Assembly (NCBI GenBank): GCA_944358865.1
Contig: CALVRV010000013.1
Coordinates: 1 to 38,049, forward strand
Direction of reading: 5' to 3'
Source: an uncultured Bacilli bacterium
Lineage (GTDB): Bacteria; Bacillota_I; Bacilli_A; RFN20; CAG-826
DNA length: 38,049 nucleotides
Made by a program: the position numbers and the translations under genes. Shown one piece after another: positions 178-7,354 of the stretch (positions are counted from its first letter, which is position 1; the number at the start of each line of letters is the position of its first letter). Under the pieces are notes generated by a model. It saw only the letters and a list, made by a program, of their open reading frames with translations. It was not told the origin of the DNA and ran no database searches.

Positions 178-468
178 TTATTTATTATTTTCTATGATAC
201 ATTTACGAATGTATTCAATTAAATCTTCAAAATCAATTTTGTGCAATTCGTTTGTAACTTCGTTTACAAAATATGCTTTTGATGTTTTTCTTCCTACTAA
301 ATAATCTAATGAAACATTAAAATAATCGGCAATAGCGATAAGTTGATTAATATTAGGTGAATATAATCCATTTTCCCAATTTAATATTGTTTGAGCGCTG
401 ACGCCAAGAATTTTGCCTAATTGGCCTTGTGTAATTTCTTTTCTTTGTCTTAATTCTTTAATTTTCAT
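178..468 (-). CDS. XRE-family helix-turn-helix transcriptional regulator
   Basis: This 96-residue protein starts at the methionine of MKIKELRQRKEITQ. An upstream in-frame ATG at 570 would add 34 hydrophobic, low-complexity residues that do not fit the family, so I reject it. Residues 1-60 form a classic Cro/C1 (HTH_3) domain: ITQGQLGKILGVSAQTILNWE, then NINQLIAIADYFNVSLDYLVG. The short charged C-terminal tail (about 35 residues) carries no recognisable ligand or protease domain. The gene is divergent from the ECF sigma operon. A 9-bp inverted repeat lies just upstream of its start and could be an autoregulatory operator. No Shine-Dalgarno is visible. Family assignment is firm; target genes are unknown. 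Confidence 0.9.
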   Translation of the reverse strand: MKIKELRQRKEITQGQLGKILGVSAQTILNWENGLYSPNINQLIAIADYFNVSLDYLVGRKTSKAYFVNEVTNELHKIDFEDLIEYIRKCIIENNK

Positions 469-489
469 AACTATTTTATTATCAATGAA

Positions 490-519
490 AACTTGATTAT
501 TTATTTTAAAAATCAAGTT
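490..519. promoter_or_regulatory. Inverted repeat upstream of the XRE gene, possible operator
   Basis: AACTTGATT (490-498) and AATCAAGTT (511-519) are perfect 9-bp inverted arms separated by 12 bp. They sit 22-51 bp upstream of the XRE start codon in the divergent gap before the sigma gene. XRE regulators often bind inverted repeats near their own promoter, so autoregulation is a reasonable guess. No protein-binding evidence can be seen from sequence alone. Confidence 0.4.
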
Positions 520-604
520 AACCTTGAATATTAGTAAAAAAATAAAGAAAAAATTAATCGATACTAACATATTATTTATGATAAAATTTCAAAGTAAAAA
601 AATT

Positions 605-647
605 TTCCAATAAATATGCTTTCTAAATTGTTAATAAGGTGAAAAGG
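605..647 (+). promoter_or_regulatory. Putative ECF-sigma autoregulated promoter, copy 1
   Basis: TTCCAATAAA (605-614), a 13-bp spacer, TTGTT (628-632) and AGGTGAAAAGG (637-647) lead directly into the sigma gene. The same elements with identical spacing occur at 2261-2303 before the lipoprotein gene. The element is unlike the TATAAT/TAAAAT -10 boxes used elsewhere in this window, which fits recognition by an alternative sigma factor. AGGTG at 637-641 probably doubles as the Shine-Dalgarno for the ATG at 649. The function is inferred from the duplication and the context. Confidence 0.55.
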
Positions 648-648
648 T

Positions 649-1173
649 ATGCAAGAAAAACAAAGACTTCAAATTTTGTTAAAAAGACTTAAACAAGAAG
701 ACATGTCAGCGTTTGATGAGTTTTACCTTTTAAGCAAAAAGCCTGTCTATTTTGCTATTTATGTCATCTTTAAAGATGATCATATCGCACAAGATCTATC
801 TCAAGAAGTGTATTTAGATTTTTTGAATTATAAATCTAAATTAAAAGATGACATTGACATCATTGCCTATTTAGTTACATCTGCAAAAAATAAGGCTATT
901 AATTACTACAATAAAGTAAAGTATGAAGAAAACTTTAAATTTAAATTTATTAATGAATCATATTCAAAAGATGAAATGATTGAAAGTGATTTAATTGATA
1001 AAGTTAAAGACATTCTTGATGAAAAGGAATTCATGGTATTTACTTTAAAAGTTCTTGGTGATTATACCTTTAAGGAAATATCTAAATTAAAGGATATTCC
1101 AATTGGAACTTTGACATGGCTTTATAGCCAGGCAAAAGAAAAACTACAATTAAAGTTAGGAGGGTATTTATAA
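649..1173 (+). CDS. ECF-type RNA polymerase sigma factor
   Basis: A 174-residue sigma-70 family protein of the extracytoplasmic-function type. Region 2 is visible at about residues 20-65 (SAFDEFYLLSKKPVYFAIYV, then DDHIAQDLSQEVYLDFL). Region 4 is at about 124-170 (LDEKEFMVFTLKVLGDYTF, then the helix-turn-helix KEISKLKDIPIGTLTWLYS). There is no region 1 or 3, and the length is typical for ECF factors. Its TAA stop shares its last base with the ATG of the downstream membrane protein (TAATG), so translation is coupled, as is usual for a sigma factor and its anti-sigma factor. The shared promoter motif in front of it suggests autoregulation. Its ECF subgroup is unknown. Confidence 0.93.
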   Translation: MQEKQRLQILLKRLKQEDMSAFDEFYLLSKKPVYFAIYVIFKDDHIAQDLSQEVYLDFLNYKSKLKDDIDIIAYLVTSAKNKAINYYNKVKYEENFKFKFINESYSKDEMIESDLIDKVKDILDEKEFMVFTLKVLGDYTFKEISKLKDIPIGTLTWLYSQAKEKLQLKLGGYL

Positions 1174-2255
1174 TGGATGAGAAAAAAATTCGACAAGATT
1201 TACTAAATAGTATCGACGCTAATAAGATCGATAATATTAGTTCTGCAATTTTGCAAAAATATCAATTACAAAAAGAAAACGAAAAGAAAAAAATTCCATG
1301 GTATAAAAGCAAAATATTATATTTTGTTGGCTCTCCTTTATTATGCGCTGGTGTAGCGCTTGCAATTATTTTGCCTTTGACTACAAAAGACAGCAATGGT
1401 TCAAGTAATCCTTTGTTACCTCCAGGTGATTATATTCCAGGTGAAATTAAAGGAAAACATAATGAAGTAGCTTTTTCTGTTTTAAGTGCAGCAAATATTT
1501 TAACAAATAGTACTGCAGCCTCTCCTATGTTAAAACAAAGAATTAGTCAAAATGATTTTGAAGAAGCTATGACTTCTTTAAATCCATATATGACTACTAG
1601 TGAAGTTGTATTAACTAATGGTTTACAAATTGAACAAACAATTTTCGAAAGCGATGATCCTAATTATGAATTTAAGATGATTATTAAAGACAATAATAAT
1701 GATATTGATTTTTATTATAACGAATATGATAAAGATGGTACTTTAGATCATTTTGATGATGATGACGATGATGAAATAGAAGAAGAATATCATATTAAAG
1801 GCATTTTTGTTATCGATGGTACAACCTACAATGTTACTGGAGACAAAGAATTAGAAAACGAAACTGATGAAAGTGAATATGAATTAACTTTACAAGTTGA
1901 TTTAAATAGCAATAGCAAACTTATCATCGAACAACAAATTGAAACTGAAAATAATGAAGAAGAACAAAGTTTTGTATATACATTGATTGAAAATAATCGC
2001 CAATCATTTTCTGTTGAGCTTTCTTTTGAACAAGAAGTAAATAAAAATATGGTCGCTGAAATTAGTATTGAAAAACAAGGCCATGAAGCAGAATATGTTA
2101 TTTTTAAATCAAATGATTCTAATTATGATTTTAAATTAAATTATGAAATAAACGATGAAGAAGGTAATATTAATGTTTCAATTATAAATGATGGCGCAGA
2201 CTATCGATACGAAGAAACAAGACAAAATTTTTATATCGAATTACCAAGAAATTAA
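1173..2255 (+). CDS. Membrane anti-sigma factor with large acidic ectodomain
   Basis: A 360-residue single-pass membrane protein. Residues 1-46 are a charged cytoplasmic segment, residues 47-70 are one transmembrane helix (ILYFVGSPLLCAGVALAIIL), and the rest is predicted to be outside the cell. Position, topology and 1-bp overlap with the ECF sigma gene indicate an anti-sigma factor; no zinc-binding HxxxCxxC motif is seen in the N-terminus. The ectodomain carries a run of six Asp followed by EIEEEYHIKGIFVIDGTTY, then beta-rich, Glu-rich sequence. From about residue 96 it resembles the lipoprotein encoded next (shared AFxxxxxAxxL, MTxSEVV, YYNE, acidic run, EEEYxIxGxxxID, KELE/D). The signal sensed and the proteolytic release step are unknown. 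Confidence 0.75.
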   Translation: MDEKKIRQDLLNSIDANKIDNISSAILQKYQLQKENEKKKIPWYKSKILYFVGSPLLCAGVALAIILPLTTKDSNGSSNPLLPPGDYIPGEIKGKHNEVAFSVLSAANILTNSTAASPMLKQRISQNDFEEAMTSLNPYMTTSEVVLTNGLQIEQTIFESDDPNYEFKMIIKDNNNDIDFYYNEYDKDGTLDHFDDDDDDEIEEEYHIKGIFVIDGTTYNVTGDKELENETDESEYELTLQVDLNSNSKLIIEQQIETENNEEEQSFVYTLIENNRQSFSVELSFEQEVNKNMVAEISIEKQGHEAEYVIFKSNDSNYDFKLNYEINDEEGNINVSIINDGADYRYEETRQNFYIELPRN

Positions 2256-2260
2256 AAAAA

Positions 2261-2303
2261 TTCCAATAAAATTCATTTTTCATTTGTTGAATAGGTGAAA
2301 AGG
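2261..2303 (+). promoter_or_regulatory. Putative ECF-sigma dependent promoter, copy 2
   Basis: TTCCAATAAA (2261-2270), 13 bp, TTGTT (2284-2288) and AGGTGAAAAGG (2293-2303) repeat the arrangement found before the sigma gene at exactly the same spacing. The spacer between the blocks has diverged while the blocks are identical, which suggests selection on the elements. It would give the lipoprotein gene its own sigma-responsive transcription in addition to read-through from the operon. Confidence 0.55.
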
Positions 2304-2315
2304 AGAAAATGAAAA

Positions 2316-3200
2316 ATGAAAAAAACATTAAAAATCTTACTTCCAGTTCTTACAATCGGCATGTTAACTGGCTGCCAAATTTCCGCTAACAATTCTAGTC
2401 AAAACGGAGGCACCACTAATAACGGTAGCAATCCTTCAGCACAAAGCGAACAAGTATACGCTTTTGAAGCAATTACCAGTGCAGGTCTATTACATTCCTT
2501 AAATAATAATCAGGATGTTCTAGCAGTTAAAAAAGCAAAAGCTGATGAAACATTAGTGAGTCAAATAAAAGATTATCTTCCTAGTGTTGAAGCAGCATTA
2601 ACTAATCAAAGTTTAATGACTTCAAGTGAAGTTGTTGCATCAGATCGAAATGAATATGCAACAAAAGTAATTATTACTTATACTGACATCGCATTTGTAA
2701 ATCAAACTATGACGATGTATTATAATGAAACCGCTATACCTGATGATGATTTCGACGATGATTGGGATGATCAATTTGAAGAAGAATATGTGATTGATGG
2801 ACTTATCATTATTGATGACGTAGAATATCAAATGTTTGGTAAAAAAGAATTAGATCAAGATGAATATGAAGTATCATTTACTTATCAAATTGATGAAAAT
2901 AATTACATTAAAGTCGAACAAGAAATAGAAAATGATGAAAGTGAATTCAACTATACAGTTATTCAAAACCGTCGCAAAGTATATGAATATAGTTTAGAAG
3001 TAGAAGATAATAGTGTTGAATTAGAAGTAAAAGACCGTAATCTAGGTGTCGAAAAGATGGAATTTGAATTCCTAAAACGTGATAATAGAACATATATTAT
3101 TGCTGAAGTACGACAAAATGGTGTCTCAAGCGAAATCGTTTTTGAAAAAGTTGTTGATGAATTAAATAATATAACTTATAACGTAATTTCTAATCGATAA
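2316..3200 (+). CDS. Lipoprotein paralogous to the anti-sigma ectodomain
   Basis: A 294-residue lipoprotein: signal peptide with a textbook lipobox LTGC (lipid-modified Cys20), then a Ser/Asn/Gly-rich linker to about residue 45. The mature domain matches the ectodomain of the preceding anti-sigma factor: AFEAITSAGLL, MTSSEVV, YYNE, the acidic loop DDDFDDDWDDQFEEEY, VIDGLIIIDDVEY, KELD and a beta-rich tail. I know of no named function for this domain; the acidic loops could bind a cation. Start: ATG at 2316 has GGAG upstream at 2302-2305; an in-frame alternative is not needed because the signal peptide begins MKKTLK. It is the last gene of the module and is followed by a strong terminator. Roles as ligand, decoy or envelope-protective protein are all speculative. 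Confidence 0.8.
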   Translation: MKKTLKILLPVLTIGMLTGCQISANNSSQNGGTTNNGSNPSAQSEQVYAFEAITSAGLLHSLNNNQDVLAVKKAKADETLVSQIKDYLPSVEAALTNQSLMTSSEVVASDRNEYATKVIITYTDIAFVNQTMTMYYNETAIPDDDFDDDWDDQFEEEYVIDGLIIIDDVEYQMFGKKELDQDEYEVSFTYQIDENNYIKVEQEIENDESEFNYTVIQNRRKVYEYSLEVEDNSVELEVKDRNLGVEKMEFEFLKRDNRTYIIAEVRQNGVSSEIVFEKVVDELNNITYNVISNR

Positions 3201-3219: not shown

Positions 3220-3245
3220 AAGTGGCTAGCGATAGCCACTTTTTT
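3220..3245 (+). terminator. Intrinsic terminator of the ECF module
   Basis: AAGTGGCTA (3220-3228) and TAGCCACTT (3233-3241) form a perfect 9-bp stem with a GCGA tetraloop, followed by a T run through 3245. It lies 20 bp after the lipoprotein stop codon. It is one of only two clear intrinsic terminators in the window. Confidence 0.93.
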
Positions 3246-3345: not shown

Positions 3346-3903
3346 ATGTTTGAAATAGTTGATGAAACGGAATTATTCAAAAGACATCCGAATTTAAATA
3401 AATTACAGTTAGCGCACTTCTTAAATGATTGCTTCAAGATGGTAAAAAAAGACTTATTGAGCAAAAAATTAGCAGATGTTTATTCAAGTGATGATTATCC
3501 GAATGTTGAAATCCACTTAAATGACATTAATAATGGTATGTTATTTGCTTTATATCGCGATGGTTTAATTGGGGCAATTAGTTATTCAAAAGGAAATATT
3601 AAAGATGATTTTGGTTTAAGAAATGATCAAGAATATGATGATTTTATGACTAAAATAAATGTCGATAAAACTAATTATTGTACTTTGCATCGATTATTTG
3701 TTATACCAGAATATCAAGGGCAGGGGGTTGGTAAAGCTTTAATTAAAGAAGCTGAATCCAGGTTTAAAAATACAACAATTTTATTTTTAGTTTCGCCATT
3801 TAATATTCCTGCAATTAACATGTATGAAAAATTGGATTATCAAAATTTAGGCTCTTATCCATTTGCTTTTGGTAATTTTGTTGTCTTTAAAAAAGAAAAT
3901 TGA
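3346..3903 (+). CDS. GNAT-family N-acetyltransferase
   Basis: A 185-residue acetyl-CoA-dependent acetyltransferase. The acetyl-CoA pyrophosphate-binding motif A is clear: LHRLFVIPEYQGQGVGKALI with Q124-G-Q-G-V-G129. Later strands (NTTILFLVSPFNIPAINMYE, KLDYQ) match motif B of the Acetyltransf_1 fold. The N-terminal 60 residues are less typical and probably shape the acceptor site. A strong Shine-Dalgarno (AGGAGAG) precedes the start. It is transcribed alone from its own promoter; the following gene has a separate promoter. The substrate cannot be predicted: small amine, antibiotic and protein N-termini are all possible. Confidence 0.88.
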   Translation: MFEIVDETELFKRHPNLNKLQLAHFLNDCFKMVKKDLLSKKLADVYSSDDYPNVEIHLNDINNGMLFALYRDGLIGAISYSKGNIKDDFGLRNDQEYDDFMTKINVDKTNYCTLHRLFVIPEYQGQGVGKALIKEAESRFKNTTILFLVSPFNIPAINMYEKLDYQNLGSYPFAFGNFVVFKKEN

Positions 3904-3905
3904 TT

Positions 3906-3914
3906 TGTTAAAAT
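3906..3914 (+). promoter_or_regulatory. Extended -10 promoter of the nucleotidase gene, leaderless
   Basis: TG-T-TAAAAT (3906-3914) is an extended -10 element ending 7 nt before the ATG at 3922, with no Shine-Dalgarno between them. Transcription would begin at or very near the A of the start codon. It begins only 3 bp after the GNAT stop codon. Confidence 0.55.
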
Positions 3915-3921
3915 ACTAATT

Positions 3922-5526
3922 ATGAAAAAGAATATACTTATTTTTACTGCATTAGCAGCTTTGCTTTGTTCGTCTTGTGCGACTGTTACTACTTCATCTA
4001 GTTCTAGTTTTTCATCTTCAAGTGATGATTTAACTACAACTACATCTAGTACCACTTCATCAACTAGTACGACAACAAGCTATCCTACTTCAATAAGTGT
4101 TGATTCTAATCCAAATACATTAGATTTTTACGCTATAAATGATTTTCATGGTCATCTTCAAGAAAATATTAATAATTATGAGCCCGGTTTAGCGAGAATT
4201 AAAACTTATTTAAATTATGAAAAACAAAAAAATCCAGATGGTTTTGTTTTCTTAAGCAGCGGGGATACATTTCAAGAAACTTATGATTCTTCAATTAATA
4301 AAGGTGAAGTTATGGCTAAAGCTTTGCCTTTAATGGAATGTGAAACGATGACTTTAGGTAATCATGAATTCGATTGGGGAATTGATATTATAAAAAGAAA
4401 TGCCGAATTTGCAGGGTCTTGTACATTTTTAGCAGCGAATTTGTATTATTATGATGAAGAAAATAAACAAGTATTAGACTTTGCTAGCGATATTGTTAAA
4501 GAATATAAAATAATTGAACGTGGCGATTTTAAAATCGGTATTATTGGTATTATCGGACAAGGACAAATTACTTCTATTACTTCCTCTATTTGGGAAGGAT
4601 TAACCTTTTTAGAACCTACAGAAATTGTTAAATCATTATCTGACGAATTAAAAGGTGAATTAGGATGTGATGTAGTCGTTGTTAGTGCGCATGCTGGTTT
4701 TGGTGATTTAGGATATACTTTTGCTAATCAAGTTACATCTATATCTCCTGTTACTAATAAAAGATATATTGATGCATGTTTTACAGCGCATTCCCATGGC
4801 TTTGATGATAAATATGTTAATAACGTCCCATTTTTACAAAGTGGAAGTAAGGGTCAATATATTTCCCATATTAAATTAGAAGTTAAAGATGATGGCAGTG
4901 TAACAAGACTATACGCTCAAAGTGAACCTATCATGATGGATTTACCTCAAGATTATGAAATTCAATCTTATTTAGATTCTTATTTTGATGAAGCTTTCTA
5001 TCAAGAAAAAGATGAAATAGTTGGCACTATTGAAGGCGCAAGTTATCTATCTAGATCTTTAGCGGGTAACTTACTCGCGTATACAACGTATGATTTATTA
5101 GAAGATGAAAATATTGAAGTTGATGTCGTTATGAATAATGGCGGAAGAAATTCTATTAATCTTTTTGATAATGGTGGAATTTCTTTAGGGTTAATTTATG
5201 ATGCTTTACCATTTTTAAATACAACGTATGTTTCAAGTGTTAAGGGCAGTGAAATTATGTATGAAATAAATTATGGTAACACTTATTATGCACCAAATTT
5301 AACTCAAATTGATCCAAATAAATATTACACACTTGCGTGTATTGATTATTTATTACTACATAAAGATGTTGATAGAGAATATGATTATTTTCCAACATAT
5401 GATGGAAATTATTCACATATAATTACCGATTATTCTTATGAAATTGTTTATGACTATTTTAAAGAAAATAAGACAATTTCAATATCTACTTTAAATAATG
5501 ATGCTGGATTTAGTAATCTAGACTAA
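3922..5526 (+). CDS. 5'-nucleotidase-like metallophosphoesterase lipoprotein
   Basis: A 534-residue surface protein of the 5'-nucleotidase / UshA / 2',3'-cyclic-nucleotide phosphodiesterase family. A signal peptide ends at a probable lipobox with Cys19 (CSSC), followed by a Ser/Thr-rich stalk to about residue 58. The metallophosphoesterase domain shows all expected metal ligands: NDFHGH (D74, H76), SGDTF (D115), GNHEFDWG (N147, H148), HAG (H257) and HSHGF (H290, H292). The C-terminal half (about 345-534) matches the 5_nucleotid_C substrate-binding domain (NNGGRNSI, YDALPFLNT). It likely strips phosphate from external nucleotides for nucleoside uptake, which would suit the nearby uridine kinase. 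Its stop overlaps the convergent udk stop by 4 bp. Confidence 0.9.
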   Translation: MKKNILIFTALAALLCSSCATVTTSSSSSFSSSSDDLTTTTSSTTSSTSTTTSYPTSISVDSNPNTLDFYAINDFHGHLQENINNYEPGLARIKTYLNYEKQKNPDGFVFLSSGDTFQETYDSSINKGEVMAKALPLMECETMTLGNHEFDWGIDIIKRNAEFAGSCTFLAANLYYYDEENKQVLDFASDIVKEYKIIERGDFKIGIIGIIGQGQITSITSSIWEGLTFLEPTEIVKSLSDELKGELGCDVVVVSAHAGFGDLGYTFANQVTSISPVTNKRYIDACFTAHSHGFDDKYVNNVPFLQSGSKGQYISHIKLEVKDDGSVTRLYAQSEPIMMDLPQDYEIQSYLDSYFDEAFYQEKDEIVGTIEGASYLSRSLAGNLLAYTTYDLLEDENIEVDVVMNNGGRNSINLFDNGGISLGLIYDALPFLNTTYVSSVKGSEIMYEINYGNTYYAPNLTQIDPNKYYTLACIDYLLLHKDVDREYDYFPTYDGNYSHIITDYSYEIVYDYFKENKTISISTLNNDAGFSNLD

Positions 5527-6146
5527 GATTTATTTAATAAATTGTTTATATTATTTATGATGGTGTTGACTTTATCTAAATCAAGACCATCATTTTTATT
5601 ATTAACAAAAATATAATCAGCGTTTAACTTACTCTTTTCAATATATAAATCGTGCATCGGCTTAACGGTATCATAAAATTGTTTTAAAACACTTTCTTTT
5701 GTTCTTCCTCTTAAGACGATATCGCGATTAATACGTCGATTTAATCTAACATCCTCATCAGCGTCGACATATATTTTATAATCTGCAATTTCTAATAATT
5801 GTGGAAAATATAAAGCGAAAATACCATCGATTAATAATATTTGATTATATTTAATTTTAATTGTTTCATTGCTTCTTAAATGTAGTTTAAAATCGTATGT
5901 AGGAATAATAATATCATTTCCATTTTTATATTCATTTATTTTTTCTAATAGCAAAGATACTTCATAAGCATTAGGATCATCATAGTTGAGTTTACATCTT
6001 TGTTCAAAACTTAAATGTGAGTTGTTTTTGTAAAAGTTATCAATATTAATTAACGAAGCATTATTTATCATTTTTAAAATTGTATCGCAAAGTAAAGTTT
6101 TGCCACTGGCAGAACCTCCACCAATAAGAACAATTAAAGGCTTCAT
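5523..6146 (-). CDS. udk: Uridine kinase
   Basis: A 207-residue cytoplasmic P-loop kinase that phosphorylates uridine (and usually cytidine) with ATP or GTP in pyrimidine salvage. The Walker A motif is GGSASGKT at residues 10-17. Family signatures follow: INIDNFYKN, NYDDPNAYE, IPTYDFKLHLR, LLIDGIFALYFPQL, then KIYVDADEDVRLNRRINRD with the Arg-rich lid and GRT. Length is normal. It is the last gene of the minus-strand operon and overlaps the pepT stop by 4 bp (translation coupling). The stop codon TAG overlaps the convergent nucleotidase stop. Confidence 0.95.
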   Translation of the reverse strand: MKPLIVLIGGGSASGKTLLCDTILKMINNASLINIDNFYKNNSHLSFEQRCKLNYDDPNAYEVSLLLEKINEYKNGNDIIIPTYDFKLHLRSNETIKIKYNQILLIDGIFALYFPQLLEIADYKIYVDADEDVRLNRRINRDIVLRGRTKESVLKQFYDTVKPMHDLYIEKSKLNADYIFVNNKNDGLDLDKVNTIINNINNLLNKS

Positions 6147-7354
6147 ACTTTAACAACCTCCTTTAATATTTCAATAAGCATATTATGTTCGCGAACATTT
6201 AAAAATTCTAAAACACCATGATGGTTGTATGATCCTGTACCAAGATTGGGAGTAGGGCAACCTTTAAAAGAAAAAGTCGCTCCATCAGTGCCACCTCGAA
6301 TGGGAATGAATTTATATGGAATATTTAAATTATTGTAAGCTTTTATAATTTTATCTAACACGCTTTTATTTTGATTAATAATTTCGGCCATATTTTTATA
6401 TTGATATTTAATATTTAAATCCACATGAGATTTATTATATTTTTCTTCAACTATTTCTTTTGCTTTAACAAATTGATTTATTTTTTCTTCCAATTTTTCT
6501 TTATCAAAGTCTCTAACAATATAATTCATTGTTGTTAAAGATTCTTCACCATTAATGCTGTTTAAATGGTGAAATCCTTGATAATCTTGGGTTTTTGCAG
6601 GGATTTCATCAGGATTTAAAAGGTTATCAAATTCATTAGCTAATAAAATTGAATTAATCATTTTGCCTTTTGCTTCACCTGGATGAATATTAAAACCACT
6701 TATTTTTACAATAACACTAGCGGCATTAAAGTTTTCATAACTAATTCCATAAGGAGTATCGCCATCAATCGTATAAGCATAATTTGCTTTAAAAATTTTA
6801 TTATCAAAATGATCTGCGCCTCTTCCTATTTCTTCATCACAAGTAAATAAAATTGATATAGGAACATGTTTAAAATCTTTGTTAGTAGCGATATATCTTA
6901 TTAAATTCATAATAATAGAAATACCAGCTTTATCATCCGCGCCTAACAATGTTGTTCCATCGGTAGTTATTAAAGTATCACCAATAAAATCATTTAAAAT
7001 ATGGAAATCGTTTTTAGATAAAATAACATTATTTTTTAAAATGATATCTTGTCCAGAATAATTATTAATGATGTTAGGTTTAACATCTTTTCCTGATACT
7101 TCTAAAGCGGTATCCATATGGGCATTAAAACCGATAGTGTCATAACCTTTTTCACCTTCAATAAATAAGTGGACTTGACCAAATTCATCAATATAAGCAT
7201 TATTAAAACCTAACTTTTTTATATCATTAAGTATTTCTTTAGCAAGATTAAGTTGTTTAGCGCTGCTAGGAGAAGTTAAACTTGTATCATCACTTTGTGT
7301 ATCTATTTGGACATATTTTAAAAAATAATCTAATTTATTTAAATCATTATCCAT
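6143..7354 (-). CDS. pepT: Peptidase T (tripeptide aminopeptidase)
   Basis: A cytoplasmic M20B zinc metallopeptidase that removes N-terminal residues from tripeptides. Visible ligands and catalytic residues: AHMDT (H79, D81), LGADDKAG (D140), the general base in CDEEIGRGAD (E174/E175), the dimerisation-domain HPG, and RGGTDGA plus NHHG near the end. I choose the ATG at 7354 (403 residues) because AAGG lies 9-12 nt upstream of it. The in-frame ATG at 7363 has that AAGG directly adjacent, so it would lack a usable ribosome binding site. It overlaps the end of the ThyX-like gene by 8 bp. Its presence in a nucleotide operon looks like convenience grouping. Confidence 0.95.
   Translation of the reverse strand: MDNDLNKLDYFLKYVQIDTQSDDTSLTSPSSAKQLNLAKEILNDIKKLGFNNAYIDEFGQVHLFIEGEKGYDTIGFNAHMDTALEVSGKDVKPNIINNYSGQDIILKNNVILSKNDFHILNDFIGDTLITTDGTTLLGADDKAGISIIMNLIRYIATNKDFKHVPISILFTCDEEIGRGADHFDNKIFKANYAYTIDGDTPYGISYENFNAASVIVKISGFNIHPGEAKGKMINSILLANEFDNLLNPDEIPAKTQDYQGFHHLNSINGEESLTTMNYIVRDFDKEKLEEKINQFVKAKEIVEEKYNKSHVDLNIKYQYKNMAEIINQNKSVLDKIIKAYNNLNIPYKFIPIRGGTDGATFSFKGCPTPNLGTGSYNHHGVLEFLNVREHNMLIEILKEVVKV

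Follow-up and report, generated by a model that had tools for sequence, protein, structure and literature searches.

In an uncultured Bacilli bacterium we identified a three-gene module that encodes an ECF sigma factor, a membrane anti-sigma factor and a secreted lipoprotein, in which the lipoprotein is a paralogue of the anti-sigma ectodomain and is also the main predicted target of the sigma factor. The module appears to be an ECF sigma/anti-sigma system, a known kind, whose sensor family is unannotated and whose target is unusual. We give about an even chance to the reading that this system has as its main target a membrane-anchored copy of its own receptor, which would capture the same, probably cationic, ligand and thereby exert negative feedback. 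We read the linkage of the genes directly from the sequence; the ligand and the sign of the feedback are inferred. The module lies in a window of 38,049 nucleotides (the whole stretch of DNA that was analysed, contig CALVRV010000013.1) that belongs to a genome of 1.19 Mb in 39 contigs, estimated as 97.7% complete.

The features of the module are collected in Table 1. The sigma factor has sigma2 and sigma4 regions, scores above cut-off with the ECF model and is encoded next to a partner with a single transmembrane segment and an N-terminal cytoplasmic segment, which places the pair among ECF systems. In this partner, a cytoplasmic tail of about 47 residues is followed by one hydrophobic transmembrane segment (about residues 48-72) and by an ectodomain from about residue 90; the anti-sigma family as a whole has one transmembrane segment that starts near residue 52. 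From its position and architecture, the partner is the putative inhibitor of the sigma factor. The hairpin and T-run downstream of the lipoprotein gene are likely the intrinsic terminator of the module. A single-sequence search found no further copy of the sensor domain in the window's genome, in which an M50 site-2 protease gene is present. Three other loci were noted. A divergent Cro/CI-type HTH regulator is encoded upstream of the sigma gene (window positions 178-570), and a similar small HTH ORF is found there in genomes G001 and G004. Beyond the terminator lies a gene for a 5'-nucleotidase-like metallophosphoesterase lipoprotein with a Ser/Thr-rich linker (3922-5526), which is near the module in G003 and G004 as well. 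Elsewhere in the same genome (contig C18, L247:1441-3439), a second ECF sigma/membrane anti-sigma pair has an ectodomain with Big_3 Ig-like domains that looks unrelated.

Table 1. Features of the module in the window and in locus L271 of genome G364 (very probably Acholeplasma laidlawii PG-8A).
Feature	Position	Strand	Basis or remark
Predicted sigma/anti-sigma operon promoter, ECF type, CCAATAA-N15-TGTTAATA	605..638	+	Exact own-genome match 607-636; motif family 5' of sigma
ECF sigma factor, 174 aa	649..1173	+	TIGR02937 (53.1 bits, cut-off 42.9) and Sigma70_r4_2 above cut-off; Sigma70_r2 below its own cut-off
Putative membrane anti-sigma factor, 360 aa	1173..2255	+	ORF shares 1 nt with the sigma stop
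Sensor ectodomain, about residues 96-355 of the anti-sigma factor	1458..2237	+	Lipoprotein paralogue by BLASTP, profile-profile comparison and model
Predicted lipoprotein gene promoter, ECF type, CCAATAA-N15-TGTTGAATA	2261..2296	+	Exact match 2262-2293
Secreted lipoprotein, 294 aa, lipobox MLTGC, Cys20	2316..3200	+	ORF; starts 60 nt past the anti-sigma gene
Hairpin and T-run, likely terminator, AGTGGCTA-GCGA-TAGCCACT-TTTTT	3221..3245	+	Read from sequence
L271 candidate promoter, TTACCAATAAAA...CGTATATA			5' of lipoprotein
L271 lipoprotein	3522-4487		Order lipoprotein-sigma-anti-sigma
L271 sigma factor	4533-5057		
L271 anti-sigma factor	5038-6174		

Several sequence comparisons show that the anti-sigma ectodomain and the lipoprotein are paralogues, which agrees with the shared domain that a preliminary description of this DNA had proposed. 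Pairwise BLASTP aligned the two proteins with 32% identity over 193 residues (E=6e-15), and a profile-profile comparison of 15 anti-sigmas with 17 lipoproteins covered the entire ectodomain with a probability of 99.9 (E=9.4e-33). Their Smith-Waterman local score of 250 lay 19 SD above the mean of shuffled sequences (60, SD 10; maximum 94 in 1000) and exceeded that of shuffles that keep the local composition (mean 80, maximum 133). When acidic runs were masked, the score was 174 versus a shuffle maximum of 79. Composition as the source of the similarity was thus ruled out by shuffling and masking. Moreover, AlphaFold2 models of both proteins (mean pLDDT 66 and 71, about 80 in the strands) consist of two helices and then 13-14 antiparallel strands in the same order, with 83% agreement of secondary structure at aligned positions versus 42% (maximum 61%) in shifted controls, so that the difference in fold that the preliminary description had named as refuting its proposal was not seen. 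One of the motifs offered for the similarity, MTxSEVV, was found to be out of register: the anti-sigma MTTSEVV faces LPSVEAA in the lipoprotein, and the lipoprotein MTSSEVV aligns in BLASTP with the anti-sigma stretch around IEQTIFE. Judged by this alignment, the resemblance is a coincidence of words.

Neither the sensor nor the lipoprotein reached the cut-off of any Pfam or NCBIfam family, and a sequence search of the PDB gave no convincing match to either. The HxxxCxxC motif of zinc-binding (ZAS) anti-sigmas was present in the cytoplasmic part of 0 of 62 anti-sigmas. Assignment to a known fold was rejected, as Foldseek matches to porins, ORD barrels, OspA and lipovitellin had E values of 0.03 or worse and high rmsd. 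The best structural match listed, to an ORD barrel (Z 9.4, rmsd 4.2 Å, 183 aligned residues), was tied with many unrelated barrels, and the LolA-like half-barrel of the RseB type was absent among the Foldseek and VIA matches listed. We read these matches as a generic antiparallel meander.

The preliminary description had made its proposal depend on the lipoprotein being conserved next to the sigma/anti-sigma pair, and the trio proved to be widely kept. In an order-level survey of 78 loci centred on the top-scoring lipoprotein and anti-sigma matches, the three genes lay together on the same strand in 62. The sigma and anti-sigma ORFs mostly overlap in these trios, the lipoprotein gene follows 32-250 nt further in most of them, and a lipobox is present in all 62 lipoproteins. 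Some of the other 16 loci are cut by contig ends, some are lone lipoproteins (as in families f5 and f8) and some have the anti-sigma gene a few kb away. At the class level, the trio was found in 17 of 20 loci, in families f12, f16, f19, f23, f27 and f28, with L282 assigned by position only. This linkage spans nine families and occurs in two gene orders, sigma-anti-sigma-lipoprotein and lipoprotein-sigma-anti-sigma, which argues that the adjacency is not merely a relic of one tandem duplication. Variants of the arrangement were also observed. Two tandem family lipoproteins precede one sigma/anti-sigma pair in G502 (L270:4456-6581). Clostridia MAGs carry lone family lipoproteins (L123:4634-5566 and L124:2010-2954), with no sigma or anti-sigma match on the stretch read.

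Promoter patterns predict that the sigma factor controls its own operon and the lipoprotein gene. A motif composed of CCAAYAA, 15 bases and YGT(A/T)TT or TGTT is located 5' of the sigma and lipoprotein genes and not of the anti-sigma gene; in a first count it preceded 49 of 62 sigma genes, 49 of 62 lipoprotein genes and 2 of 62 anti-sigma genes, compared with averages of 3 to 5 in shuffles. In genera g17 and g24, TGTAATAA with CGTTTRG is largely used instead at both sites, and when both motif types were counted the numbers rose to 58/62 for sigma, which by sequence indicates autoregulation, and 60/62 for the lipoprotein (anti-sigma, 2/62). The spacing is 15 in most promoters. The -10 CGT is as in canonical ECF promoters, whereas the -35 is CCAATAA here and AAC there (PMC8103513). 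The two promoters vary together: the -35 class was identical between them in 56 of the 56 genomes that have both, and the -10 similarity within genomes was 0.84 versus 0.60 in permuted pairs (0 of 5000 permutations as high), statistics that are not a count of independent events since related genomes have promoters in common. In loci with the order lipoprotein-sigma-anti-sigma, the motif was located, where seen, 5' of the lipoprotein gene at the head of the operon and not 5' of sigma.

In most of 16 genomes, exact promoter searches returned 2-4 sites, predominantly those of sigma and the lipoprotein, compared with 0-2 per genome for controls; as all regulon searches used promoter patterns, weaker sites would be missed. 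In the window's own genus, the exact full pattern recovered the lipoprotein promoter in 4 of 4 genomes, its one other match being the sigma promoter of G003; 2262-2293 is the sole exact whole-pattern match in the window's genome. A version of this pattern that allowed one mismatch was too loose and was discarded. This distribution predicts the lipoprotein as a direct sigma target nearly wherever the module was read, as the preliminary description had supposed, and the visible regulon is small. An extra exact match in G171 (L196) has no convincing target directly downstream. In G023 (contig C8, near 116024), the exact module promoter precedes the gene for another lipoprotein (L188:1547-2494) with an RsgI_M domain (PF23750, E=4e-20). 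This domain type is known from anti-sigma factors, and the gene may be a third target.

We found that the residues common to both paralogues are mostly acidic. Among the columns filled in both families, those kept across 62 anti-sigmas and 67 lipoproteins comprise one Gly, two Tyr and seven acidic positions (anti-sigma/lipoprotein numbering: E228/D180, E235/E183, E237/E185, Q255/E203, E257/E205, E264/E208 and E286/E230), with Glu in 99-100% of sequences at E257/E205 and E264/E208. The set is located in the strand region, partly at alternate residues, so that on sequence grounds the seven side chains plausibly lie on a common face, and it is mostly retained in class-level members. Together with the mean net charges of the two domain families (-38 and -37), it suggests that the ligand is a cation or otherwise cationic, or that calcium has a structural role; the acidic residues could alternatively be structural or bind calcium as part of the fold. 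The preliminary description had taken Asp-rich loops as a hint that the signal is a cation or a cationic peptide. An acidic set is indeed conserved in both paralogues, but it lies outside the Asp loop, which is weakly kept: among lipoproteins and anti-sigmas, 21% and 3% have a run of at least four Asp, and 80% and 44% have an acid-rich loop (6 of 12 residues), respectively. At L043, the sole pair that lacks a lipoprotein, YFKAKDRHFE replaces the GYEEEQEEYE of the window and most of the acidic set is gone; in this one case, absence of the lipoprotein appears to be coupled with loss of the set.

In a FastTree phylogeny with long branches, anti-sigma ectodomains were separate from lipoproteins, with two label changes, and the lipoprotein from the same genome was usually not the closest to its anti-sigma (median rank 16). 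Recent tandem duplication in each genome, or concerted evolution, was ruled out for most genomes by these separate old groups. The exception is G042, where the anti-sigma ectodomain (L045:7031-8140) is nested among lipoproteins with local support of 100 and is encoded beside its own lipoprotein. The sensor domain therefore seems replaceable by a lipoprotein-type domain, which fits a common ligand, in one case.

In ECF systems, a membrane partner holds the sigma factor and is removed by regulated proteolysis. Our proposed mechanism builds on this scheme. As long as no signal is present, the sigma factor would be held by the short tail that the anti-sigma factor extends into the cytoplasm. A ligand, most likely a cation, cationic peptide or polyamine at the membrane surface, would bind to the acidic strand face of the ectodomain and trigger proteolysis of the anti-sigma factor, for which the M50 site-2 protease is a candidate, and the freed sigma factor would transcribe its own operon and the lipoprotein gene. 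The lipoprotein, present on the membrane in higher copy, would then capture the same ligand, protect the cell and lower the signal.

The lipoprotein might instead be an effector with an envelope job of its own, such as repair, nutrient or ion binding or a surface shield, with the sensor registering the same substrate and no measurable damping of the signal. Orphan lipoproteins in other families and in Clostridia and the position of the lipoprotein gene at the head of the operon in the alternative gene order speak for this, as does a resemblance to RsgI, whose sensor modules recognise polysaccharides whose degradation the sigma factor controls (PMC12203970). However, strict pairing and a very small visible regulon suggest a closed loop, and we regard this reading as rather unlikely. 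We also think it improbable that the lipoprotein associates directly with the sensor through their common domain (by strand pairing, for instance) and acts as a co-inhibitor or shield that the signal displaces in the manner of CpxP. The presence of the same domain in both partners, the standing of the lipoprotein as the main visible sigma target and the replacement of the sensor by a lipoprotein-type copy in G042 would all fit, and in cells free of stress CpxP is bound to CpxA and switches off the response (PMC4160245). Yet both domains are so strongly acidic that direct pairing is disfavoured without a bridging cation, and lipoproteins that occur without a sigma/anti-sigma pair argue that the lipoprotein binds something by itself. 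Positive feedback, in which the lipoprotein concentrates the ligand or delivers it to the sensor, is very doubtful: the two proteins have the same domain at the same membrane surface and nothing in the sequence speaks against it, but autoregulation of sigma is already a positive feedback. Adding another positive arm would call for a further brake, and no candidate for one can be recognised in the vicinity. That the two genes are neighbouring duplicates with no functional connection fits their separate old groups (with one exception) and the low rank of own-genome pairs, yet is scarcely credible given that the linkage is kept in two gene orders and nine families, that the promoters co-vary, that near-invariant acidic positions are common to both proteins and that loss is coupled.

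Under the receptor/decoy reading that we prefer, the module would be a stress-type switch in genome-reduced and wall-less relatives of Bacillus that controls little but itself and a lipoprotein that duplicates its sensor. This design suggests a loop that limits itself by sensing and mopping up its ligand; we found no earlier description of one. The broader proposal, which we put at a little under an even chance, is that of an undescribed class-wide Bacilli ECF family, including wall-less Acholeplasma, that responds to cationic surface stress through a new acidic beta-meander sensor that is part of a receptor/decoy loop. Cause and effect are easy to test in very small regulons, and here a single main output appears to replicate the input device. 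Should the loop work as proposed, it would be a natural receptor/decoy circuit with a sensor family for which no annotated relative was found. The module apparently occurs in A. laidlawii, a culturable, wall-less organism whose transcription start sites have been mapped (PMC5138195), which makes the central predictions directly testable.

A literature search, largely of open-access papers, found no description of this trio. The earlier statement that no named system has this design thus holds for this sensor family within the scope searched and is too strong for the general idea, which has analogues in BlaR1, RsgI and CpxP. BlaR1 is likewise a membrane sensor homologous to secreted proteins, as its extracellular sensor domain is homologous to class D beta-lactamases that bind the same ligand (PMC5957439). 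It differs in acting through BlaI and its own metalloprotease domain rather than an ECF sigma factor and in its penicillin-binding fold, and no sequence relation to the module was found. In the SigI/RsgI systems of Clostridium thermocellum, a membrane anti-sigma factor also carries an extracellular sensor module, which recognises the substrate of the regulated proteins, and proteolysis proceeds through RseP and ClpXP (PMC12203970). The regulon is large there, whereas here it apparently includes little beyond one lipoprotein, and the window anti-sigma and its relatives had no match to the RsgI_M/SEAL central domain and no carbohydrate-binding domain. In the SigV/RsiV pair, RsiV has a similarly short cytoplasmic tail and a single transmembrane segment (residues 37-59), and its ectodomain binds a cationic protein, lysozyme, with activation by regulated proteolysis (PMC4183432). 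In contrast to RsiV, none of 15 anti-sigmas of the module had a Pfam match to DUF4163 or DUF3298. CpxP is itself a target of the Cpx response and is not known to duplicate the sensor domain of CpxA. It is a periplasmic accessory protein that feeds back on CpxA by direct binding (PMC4160245), in a two-component system rather than a sigma/anti-sigma pair.
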